Of a stretch of DNA of 64,000 bases, positions 8,599 to 45,702 are shown piece by piece (position 1 is the stretch's first letter; every line of letters begins with the position of its first letter). A program made the translations under genes and the position numbers. Source of the DNA: Acidobacteriota bacterium (GTDB lineage: Bacteria; Acidobacteriota; Thermoanaerobaculia; UBA5066; Gp7-AA6); NCBI GenBank assembly GCA_027307335.1, contig DAHUXD010000003.1, forward strand, positions 1 to 64,000, written 5' to 3'. The notes below the pieces were generated by a model. The model made no database searches. It saw nothing but the letters and a program-made list of their open reading frames with translations, and was not told where the DNA came from.

Positions 8599-9252
8599 CT
8601 ACAGCATTCCCACCGCGTGGCTCGCCAGGATCGCCACGATCGACAGCGAGATCAGCGCCTGGACCATGCAGAGGACCTTCGCCCACCGCGACAGGATCGC
8701 CGTGTCGGTCGGCGAGAACGCGGTGCTCGTGTTGAAAGCGAGAAAGAGGTAGTCCACGAAGCGCGGCGACCACGCCCCGGGGTTCTCGATCGGCGCGCCG
8801 TCCATCATCTGCGGAAAGAAGAACGCGCCCTGCGTGTGCTTGCCGCGCGTCTCCCGGCGGTGCGGGCCGCCCGCATCGAGCCGCCAGTACCACATCGCGA
8901 ACACGACGATGTTCGTCAGCCAGAGGATCGTCGCCGCCTTCAGGAGCTCTCCCGGGGAATCGCTCTTCGCGGGCAGCCTCAGGATGAGCAGGAGGAGCGA
9001 CCCGGCGAGCGAGAGAGTCAGGAGGCTGCTGATGGCGTAGCCGAGAATCCGGTCCCACTGGTGCCGGCCGGACCGGTGCAGGACCGTCGTCGGCACGAGC
9101 AGGATGAGGACGAGCGCGAGCAGGAGCCAGCGTGGCCCGAGAACCAGCTTGTGGGGCAGCGCCAGCATGATCCCGCCGACGCCGAGGAGCGCGACGAGGA
9201 CCGGCCACCGCGCCTCCGGGTTGACGGGCTCTTTCGGGGTCGGGTCTCTCAA
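8599..9252 (-). CDS. Integral membrane protein (DUF1345-like)
   Basis: 217 residues from a TTG start at 9252 to a stop at 8599. Five to six hydrophobic helices are visible. The C-terminal part has an FVDYLFLAFNTSTAFSPTDT segment before the last helix, typical of DUF1345 membrane proteins; the match to that family is by eye. No Shine-Dalgarno is visible, and the start codon lies inside the left arm of an inverted repeat (9236-9254), so the true start is uncertain. Confidence 0.75.
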   Translation of the reverse strand: MRDPTPKEPVNPEARWPVLVALLGVGGIMLALPHKLVLGPRWLLLALVLILLVPTTVLHRSGRHQWDRILGYAISSLLTLSLAGSLLLLILRLPAKSDSPGELLKAATILWLTNIVVFAMWYWRLDAGGPHRRETRGKHTQGAFFFPQMMDGAPIENPGAWSPRFVDYLFLAFNTSTAFSPTDTAILSRWAKVLCMVQALISLSIVAILASHAVGML

Positions 9253-9297
9253 AGGTGATCTTCGCGGGCGAAAACGCTCTTTGAGAGACCTGACCTC
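9236..9297. repeat. Inverted-repeat element, GGGGTCAGGTCTCT family, copy 1
   Basis: The arms 9236-9254 and 9279-9297 match over 19 bp with two mismatches and share the core GGTCTCTCAAAG. The same family occurs at 45239-45304. The left arm contains the first codons of the membrane-protein gene. Confidence 0.75.
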
Positions 9298-44147: not shown

Positions 44148-45254
44148 ATGGAAAACGAGAAGCCGCGCAGCCCTCTCTACTACGCCGATTACCTACAGCT
44201 CGACCGGCTGCTCTCAAGCCAGAAGCTGCAGAGCGCCTCGCGCGGACGGCCGGCGCACGACGAGATGCTCTTCGTCATCGTGCACCAGGCCTACGAGCTC
44301 TGGTTCAAGCAGATCCTCTGGGAGCTCGACGCCGTGCTCGCCACCTTCCGCGGCGCGTCCGTCGCCGAGGAGGCGCTCGGCCAGGCCGTCCTGCGGCTCG
44401 GGCGAATCGTCGAGATCCAGCGCGTCCTGATCCAGCAGGTCGACGTCCTCGAGACGATGACGCCGCTCGACTTCCTCGACTTCCGCGACGACCTGTTCCC
44501 GGCGTCGGGCTTCCAGAGCGTGCAGTTCCGTCTGATCGAGAACGAGCTCGGGATGCGGCGCAAGGACCGCCTCCAGATCAACGACGCGCCCTACACGTCG
44601 CGCTTCACGGCCGAGCACGCCGCCCGCGTCGAAGCCTCGGAGAAGGAGCCGTCCCTCTTCGAGCTGATCGAGGACTGGCTCGAGCGGACGCCCTTCCTCC
44701 ACTTCGGCGACTTCGACTTCTGGCGCGAGTACCGGCGCGCGGTCGACGCGATGCTCGCCGCCGACCGGGCCTCGATCCGCGCGAACCCCACGCTGACCGA
44801 CGACGAGAAGGCGAAGCAGCTCGCGGGCGTCGACTCGACCTCGGCCAAGTTCGCGGACCTGTTCGCGCCCGAGACCGGGGAGCCCGACGCGTCGCCGGGC
44901 CGCCATTTCTCCAAGCGCGCGCTCCAGGCGGCGCTCCTGATCCATCTCTACCGGGACGAGCCGATCCTGCACCTGCCGTTCCGGCTGCTCGCGCTCCTCG
45001 CCGACATCGAGCGCAACTTCACGACCTGGCGCCAGCGCCACGCGCAGATGGCGATGCGGATGATCGGCACGCGCATCGGCACGGGCGGCACGTCCGGGAG
45101 CGAGTACCTCGATCGCGCCGCCGAGCGCCACCGGGTCTTCTCGGACCTCTCGGCGCTCTCGAGCTTCTTCATCCCGCGGTCGAAGCTCCCCGCGCTCCCG
45201 CCGGAAGTCCGCAGCCGGATGGGCTTCCGTTTCACGATGGGGTCAGGTCTCTGA
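44148..45254 (+). CDS. kynA: Tryptophan 2,3-dioxygenase
   Basis: 368 residues, with ATG at 44148. The active-site base H46 is in FVIVHQAYELWFKQ, and the heme-ligand H298 is in WRQRHAQMAMRMIG, followed by GTGGTSGSEYL. The length exceeds that of the short bacterial enzymes (about 280-300) and is closer to the long, eukaryote-like form with an inserted helical segment around 190-240. It opens the indole ring of tryptophan to N-formylkynurenine. The last four residues and the TGA are contributed by the inverted-repeat element at 45239. Confidence 0.95.
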   Translation: MENEKPRSPLYYADYLQLDRLLSSQKLQSASRGRPAHDEMLFVIVHQAYELWFKQILWELDAVLATFRGASVAEEALGQAVLRLGRIVEIQRVLIQQVDVLETMTPLDFLDFRDDLFPASGFQSVQFRLIENELGMRRKDRLQINDAPYTSRFTAEHAARVEASEKEPSLFELIEDWLERTPFLHFGDFDFWREYRRAVDAMLAADRASIRANPTLTDDEKAKQLAGVDSTSAKFADLFAPETGEPDASPGRHFSKRALQAALLIHLYRDEPILHLPFRLLALLADIERNFTTWRQRHAQMAMRMIGTRIGTGGTSGSEYLDRAAERHRVFSDLSALSSFFIPRSKLPALPPEVRSRMGFRFTMGSGL

Positions 45255-45304
45255 AAGTGTGACTTTCAAAAAACTGAAGTTCACGCTTTCAGAGACCTGA
45301 CCCC
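45239..45304. repeat. Inverted-repeat element, GGGGTCAGGTCTCT family, copy 2
   Basis: 24-bp arms (45239-45262 and 45281-45304) match with one mismatch around an 18-bp loop. It sits between the convergent ends of kynA and the RidA gene. Both frames enter an arm and end identically as G-S-G-L-stop, so the element supplies both stop codons. It is related to 9236-9297. Confidence 0.85.
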
Positions 45305-45702
45305 AACTCCGCGATGACCTTCAGCTCGATCGAGATCGGCACCGGGAGGGCGACGACACCGACGGTCGTGCGCGTCGGGCGGATCTCGCCGAAGAACTCG
45401 CCGTAGACGCGGTTGAACGCCGCGAAGTCGCGCTCGATGTCGGTCAGGAAGACTGTCACGTCGACGACCTTCTCGAGCGCGCTCCCCGCGTCCTCGAGGA
45501 TCGCCCGGACGTTCTCGATGCACGCGCGCGTCTGCGCCTCGATGCCGCTCGGGATCTCCTCGGTCACGCGGTGCCGCGGGCCGATGCCGGAGAGGAAGAG
45601 CAGGCTTCCGACGCGGCGCGCGTGCGGATAGGGACCGAGGGGCCGCGGCGCGCGCGACGAGACGACGCCCCCGTTCTTCGGCGGGGTGGAATCCACGCGC
45701 AT
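45289..45702 (-). CDS. nbaF: RidA-family protein, probable 2-aminomuconate deaminase
   Basis: 137 residues, with ATG at 45702. RidA core: [46 protein letters not shown], and [13 protein letters not shown] with the substrate-binding arginine. The NbaF/AmnD aminomuconate deaminases belong to this family, and the setting in a kynurenine cluster supports that role over generic imine hydrolysis. TAGTAT abuts the ATG; a leaderless start at the in-frame GTG two codons later (45696, 6-bp gap) is an alternative. Confidence 0.82.

Follow-up and report, generated by a model that had tools for sequence, protein, structure and literature searches.

In the window, that is, the whole 64,000-nucleotide stretch of DNA that was analysed, two convergent genes run into the two arms of one short inverted repeat (Table 1). 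Over their outermost 24 nt, the arms of this element match at 23 of 24 positions, inside the arms there is a small internal stem followed by a six-base loop, and folded as RNA the whole has a minimum free energy of -51.4 kcal/mol. An earlier note, made from the letters alone, had described a 66-bp repeat with 24-bp arms that supplies identical ends to both genes, and the reading frames bear this out: kynA as found ends in ...RFTMGSGL with its stop at 45254, and the RidA gene in ...VIAELGSGL with its stop at 45289 on the minus strand, i.e. both in Gly-Ser-Gly-Leu-stop.

Table 1. Features of the two loci in the window.
Feature	Position	Strand	Remarks
66-bp mini-element	45239..45304	.	subfamily A (GGGG...CCCC)
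left arm GGGGTCAGGTCTCTGAAAGTGTGA	45239..45262	+	source of the GSGL-stop of kynA
right arm GGGGTCAGGTCTCTGAAAGCGTGA	45281..45304	-	differs by one base; source of the GSGL-stop of RidA
kynA, tryptophan 2,3-dioxygenase (PF03301)	44148..45254	+	final four codons and TGA within the element; start approximate
RidA/L-PSP family gene (PF01042)	45289..45702	-	final four codons and TGA within the element
62-bp mini-element	9236..9297	.	subfamily B; sits between AT and G of the downstream gene's ATG
gene with split native ATG	8599..9252	-	ATG at minus strand 9299-9297; TTG at 9252 is the candidate new start

The orthologous loci were then compared. In four relatives, from related genera, the convergent kynA/RidA pair is present, the element is absent and the C-termini are different. 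Where the repeat is lacking, the last residues are NPPQ, RSPR or others in the kynA orthologues and AEG, AAS or others in the RidA orthologues; GSGL ends in such genes, which the earlier note had named as the finding that would speak against it, did not occur among the orthologues compared. In-silico excision of exactly 66 bp gives kynA ending in ...GFRFTITPR-stop and RidA ending in ...KVIAELS-stop, with both frames restored, and the restored ends resemble those of the relatives (FRFNPPQ-stop and FEFRSPR-stop for kynA, AEG-stop for RidA). An ungapped alignment to the relatives had given an insertion of 69 bp, a reading that was dropped since exactly 66 bp restores both frames. No target duplication was seen at the reconstructed insertion sites. 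Since both frames regain ordinary ends once the 66 bp are taken out, this element is a precise insertion between two genes without target duplication. The opposite possibility, that the GSGL tails are ancestral and that the inverted repeat arose from duplicated coding ends, would account for a tail common to both genes, but it is already refuted by the tailless orthologues in the four related genomes, and the same sequence is found at dozens of unrelated sites.

The related element that had been noted at 9236-9297, with a gene start inside it, is also real. It has the same 14-nt head as the element at 45239-45304, with one mismatch in each arm, and the TTG used as the start of the ORF 8599-9252(-) lies within it. 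With its 62 bp removed in silico, AT and G are adjacent again and the sequence reads ATG-AAA-GAG-CCC, with the ATG of the homologues at that very place; those from the same order begin M-x-S/A-P-K immediately beyond the matching boundary. The G of the split ATG now serves as the element's first base, and the start codon has been split without obvious loss of the reading frame. It can also be observed that the native ATG opens a short frame across the element (9299-9252, minus strand). Since the TGA of this frame overlaps the TTG at 9252, re-initiation there, coupled to the short frame, would be possible.

A genome-wide search for the arm sequence, which the earlier note had proposed and for which an absence of further copies would have been an adverse outcome, gave many copies. 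The 12-mer core GGTCAGGTCTCT, with at most one mismatch, occurs 106 times in the 4.37-Mb draft genome, compared to 4 times for the reversed control, and the exact paired pattern was not found by exact matching in 40 relatives; on both grounds the repeats are not due to chance. This bacterium has about 50 distinct paired-arm copies, of which 48 were analysed (23 of subfamily A, 22 of B and 3 of C). When the ends are taken more broadly as GGGGTCAGGTC/GACCTGACCCC, paired elements are present in 13 of the 396 genomes of the phylum. Exact GGGGTCAGGTCTCT pairs are found in metagenome-assembled genomes labelled Planctomycetes, Deltaproteobacteria, Elusimicrobia, Gaiellaceae and Gammaproteobacteria. 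Three further occurrences deserve mention. In G091, a distant genome of the same phylum, there are 35 paired GGGGTCAGGTC elements whose subterminal sequence is another one (TTGAA...), and these would lend themselves well to testing a second family. Five GGGGTCAGGTC mini-elements of equal length are found on a 7.4-kb contig that is classified as viral (IMGVR_UViG_3300029286_003067, L355), and around another TIRYT gene in genome G035 (L126:1086-2604) there is a group of several mini-elements that carry the cognate subterminal sequence.

The identity of the arms between copies is 0.89-0.94, while that of the interiors is 0.42-0.67, compared to 0.39-0.44 for shuffled sequences; interiors and loops are thus near random between copies, except in the 66-bp subgroup. 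Compensatory changes in the inner stem, beyond the conserved part of the arm, are weak in subfamily A (P=0.03) and absent in subfamily B. In the ten positions past the common head, the two arms of any one copy are never identical: subfamily A has 0 copies with identical arms against 4.6 expected (P=0.003), and in subfamily B the Hamming distance from arm to arm is 5.1 compared to 3.8 (P=0.0004). This lack of identity within a copy indicates that the left end is distinct from the right one and that the element is not a perfect palindrome. The constant terminus is GGGGTCAGGTC and not a GTAG or GT[AG]G foot. A GTAG foot next to the ends was considered and rejected, as GTAG occurs in the flanks sporadically and at no fixed position, and so was a fixed register of stop trinucleotides next to the ends, the positions of which vary. 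Among the 37 intact-ended copies, a T precedes GGGG in 19 and an A follows CCCC in 22, which for a background of 0.145 is a clear preference for a T/A target (P below 1e-6).

The search for Y1/RAYT transposases, also suggested in the earlier note, led to one Y1 gene on contig 16 that is bounded by the same arms as the mini-elements (C16:106381(+), 107400(-) and 107438(-)). The motif GGGGTCAG is present at both ends of this unit, fits GGGGWSAS, and is also found in homologues. The 336-aa protein matches PF01797 (E=1.4e-11) and scores 98.2 bits against NF047646 (cut-off 80), for which the NCBIfam name is REP-associated tyrosine transposase. The HUH residues H73/H75 and Y132 are invariant among the transposase homologues, and TnpAREP (4er8, E=0.0015) is the only solved relative found by sequence. 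The C-terminus has no Pfam match of its own. It can be aligned with that of the homologue L123, one of several that match Bac_DnaA_C (35.7 for L123, cut-off 31.5), and its fold is assigned provisionally, from relatives. A single copy of the transposase was found in the draft, which is 96.5% complete, and none with ends matching subfamilies B and C was found in this assembly.

Homologues with 40-55% identity, from the class and the phylum, are bounded by matched ends too, and where the terminal motif varies (GGGGTCAGATC, GGGGTCACATC, GGGGCCAGGTC) it does so at both ends alike. Altogether, the phylum has over 40 homologous Y1 genes that lie between matched, co-varying GGGGTCA...-type ends. These data bear on the possibility that the palindromes are MITEs of an ordinary DDE insertion sequence, with the RAYT-like gene located between two insertions by chance. 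Their inverted terminal repeats and small size are indeed MITE-like, but the reconstructed sites lack a target duplication and a chance neighbourhood cannot give matched ends around so many Y1 genes, and we thus consider this origin highly improbable. The idea of the earlier note that a RAYT-type transposase spreads a small mobile palindrome is upheld as regards the Y1 gene with the same ends and the precise insertion. It has to be refined in two respects, namely that the transposase is of the TIRYT branch and not of the GTAG-REP type, and that the palindrome has distinct left and right ends. The movement itself, with the contig-16 transposase acting on the GGGGTCAGGTCTCTGAAA... ends, is what we infer from the shared ends.

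There is a second, shorter Y1 gene in the genome, on contig 60 (L034:2458-2922), which encodes 154 aa and scores strongly as a REP-associated tyrosine transposase. It was considered and rejected, as it is not bounded by matching ends. Nearby is a weak, unrelated inverted repeat of 25 nt that starts with GTAGGGGCGGGG, and the locus is perhaps the remnant of a GTAG-type REPtron.

As to their setting, the neighbouring genes are convergent for 17 of the 48 copies, tandem for 22 and divergent for 5, and the other 4 copies are inside called ORFs. With stops inside the element scored as distance 0, and with genes called by a simple codon model trained on the window, 36 of the 39 convergent and tandem copies overlap the upstream stop or lie at most 9 bp from it. 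With insertion uniform over intergenic DNA, the null, taken from the window only, is 8.9%, and with gaps drawn uniformly it is 47%, the maximum of 5000 draws being 82%. That the palindrome has become part of coding ends, as had been suggested from the one locus, applies more widely: nine copies give GSGL-stop to ten gene ends. Stops within subfamily-A elements are found in frames 0, 1 and 2 in 45, 42 and 32 of 46 entries, respectively, and on each strand two of the three frames meet a stop within 24 nt of the arm. Two more loci have empty sites, each in two relatives with different C-termini. One is a gene with a thiolase-like C-terminus, ending in ...VLFERGSGL-stop here and ...VLFER-stop in relatives, and the other ends in MLGGSGL-stop here and LLG-stop in a relative. 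At L214 and L208, GSGL-stop ends supplied by the element are seen in genes whose C-terminal sequence is of the kind typical for seryl-tRNA synthetase and for a thiolase; both enzymes are named from this sequence.

One can ask whether the palindromes are host elements, i.e. bidirectional transcription terminators or stabilisers of mRNA 3' ends that are selected at gene ends, with any mobility incidental or long past. The strong hairpin (-51 kcal/mol), the 17 of 48 copies between convergent genes and the 36 of 39 at or over stop codons would fit such a role. However, there is no U-tract, so that they are not standard intrinsic terminators, and it is the primary sequence of the arms that is conserved, not pairing alone, with loops that are near random. 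Furthermore, a transposase gene lies between the same ends and the elements are missing from the same junctions in relatives. A host function as the origin of the palindromes is thus unlikely.

A separate question is why the copies cluster at stops. That this is owed more to target choice, i.e. to steps rich in AT or to single-stranded DNA that is exposed at gene ends, than to counter-selection is a reading to which we give slightly less than an even chance, and which is compatible with a mini-TIRtron. In its favour are the AT/AT preference in a genome that is GC-rich, the fact that elements adjoin the stop of the upstream gene also when a long distance separates them from the next called gene (for example L017, L025, L192), and the skewed orientation of the ends relative to the upstream gene (6:1 in subfamily A and 6:2 in subfamily B). 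These orientation counts are small, though, long gaps may conceal uncalled genes, and purging from coding and promoter DNA must contribute.

The relation between ends and protein was examined for 53 non-redundant transposases with both ends, 46 of which have consistent ends. The terminal 11 positions are mostly near-constant among the 53, and positions 12-24 agree by 82% between the ends of one element and by 34% between elements. In partial Mantel tests on the 46, the subterminal sequence follows the distance in the C-terminal domain with Y1 removed (r=0.335, P=0.0005), while the reverse test, against Y1 with the C-domain removed, gives r=0.065 (P=0.12). The terminal 11-mer follows the Y1 distance with the C-domain removed (r=0.254, P=0.0065) and not the C-domain (r=-0.084, P=0.92). 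These correlations are modest, the method leaves some shared ancestry in them, and they express covariation and not contact. In a sliding window the peaks are at residues 253-332 for the subterminal and 53-112 for the terminal sequence. The subterminal effect holds under a second control region and when restricted to distant pairs; the terminal effect holds under a control region and is weaker in distant pairs (r=0.138, P=0.09). A rate-matched middle region leaves a weak residual (r=0.094, P=0.03). For the group with a long C-terminus alone, an earlier set of 32 gave r=0.12 (P=0.09), and with more members r=0.366 (P=0.0005) is obtained. A resemblance of the subterminal sequences to DnaA boxes was discarded, with 4 elements matching at least 8/9 against 1.8 expected (P=0.10). 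Since the terminal 11-mer follows Y1 and the next 13 nt follow the C-terminal HTH-type domain, the covariation suggests a two-part end code.

The explanation that we favour, with a probability of roughly 85%, builds on what is observed, namely the copies, the ends shared with the transposase unit, the empty sites, the stop supply and the end/domain correlations. The palindrome would be a mini-transposon that is not autonomous and consists of the left and the right end of a TIRtron, with only a short variable loop between them. The contig-16 transposase probably recognises these ends. In the two-part recognition proposed here, the near-constant GGGGTCAGGTC at the terminus would be read by the Y1 domain, and the roughly 13 nucleotides that follow, which are specific to the lineage, by the helix-turn-helix-type domain at the C-terminus. 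The transposase would excise or copy the hairpin as single-stranded DNA, which would insert at AT-rich steps (A-T/A-T) without target duplication, and the surviving insertions would be those located at gene ends. There, because two of the three frames of either strand meet a stop within the 24 nt of a subfamily-A arm, such an arm could swap the last codons for a GSGL tail plus a new stop, and the gene would stay active. The chemistry of transposition, the contacts between domains and DNA and the tolerance of the tails are the parts of this scheme that we infer. The wider proposition has in our judgement even odds: TIRtron transposases in general would have a two-part code (a near-universal terminal GGGGTCAGGTC read by Y1 and a fast-changing subterminal address of ~13 nt read by an exchangeable C-terminal HTH), by which the mini-elements of a genome would stay private to its own transposase, and insertion would be directed to the close vicinity of stop codons.

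The empty sites document a mobile palindrome becoming the end of working genes, apparently including those of a thiolase and a seryl-tRNA synthetase. The two-part code, in turn, is a testable answer to the role of the extra C-terminal domain in the largest RAYT-like proteins, which would be to read the subterminal sequence that distinguishes one repeat family from another. If this is true, the swap of a single domain should redirect a small single-strand transposase.

A literature search on the terminal sequence returned only titles on unrelated subjects. Judged by its sequence features, the system belongs to the TIRtron/TIRYT group, which has been described but is little studied. The passages of Di Nocera 2013 (PMC3733652) used here describe TIRtrons/TIRYT, in which a RAYT-like gene lies between terminal inverted repeats with a common GGGGWSAS motif, and TIR repeat families, often dimers, in species without GTAG REPs; according to the same passages, REP termini often supply stop codons. 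The present system shares with those TIRtrons a Y1 transposase between TIRs, the GGGGWSAS motif (here GGGGTCAG) and dispersed TIR dimers. It differs in being a new family in another lineage, and in having empty sites, distinct ends, stop clustering and a proposed two-part code; TIR empty sites do not appear in those passages. What is new here is thus the precise empty sites, the clustering at stop codons and the proposed code. In the 2018 survey of HuH enzymes (PMC6006769), TnpAREP subclass 2.1 was suggested to be TIRYT, no REP-like sequences were reported near it, and the target of the C-terminal HTH was left open. Its members are long Y1 proteins, as here, and the subclass has HTH/Bac_DnaA_C-like C-terminal extensions; the difference is that the C-terminal domain here correlates with the subterminal end sequence.

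With REPs/REPINs and their GTAG-type RAYTs (PMC2817692, PMC3116915) the elements have in common the paired inverted ends, the variable spacer, the hairpins, a single transposase gene and the location mainly downstream of genes, REP termini also being reported as a source of stop codons. However, there is no GTAG foot here, long inverted repeats bound the unit and the insertion runs cleanly from GGGG to CCCC. The Y1/HUH catalytic domain and the absence of target duplication are shared with IS200/IS605, whose canonical members lack terminal inverted repeats and have a short transposase, in contrast to the 24-nt inverted ends and the 336-aa protein found here. Finally, the Rickettsia palindromic elements, as cited in the same passages of PMC3733652, are likewise palindromes turned coding sequence, but they are CGTC-tagged or unrelated and lie in frame inside genes, whereas the present elements end genes.
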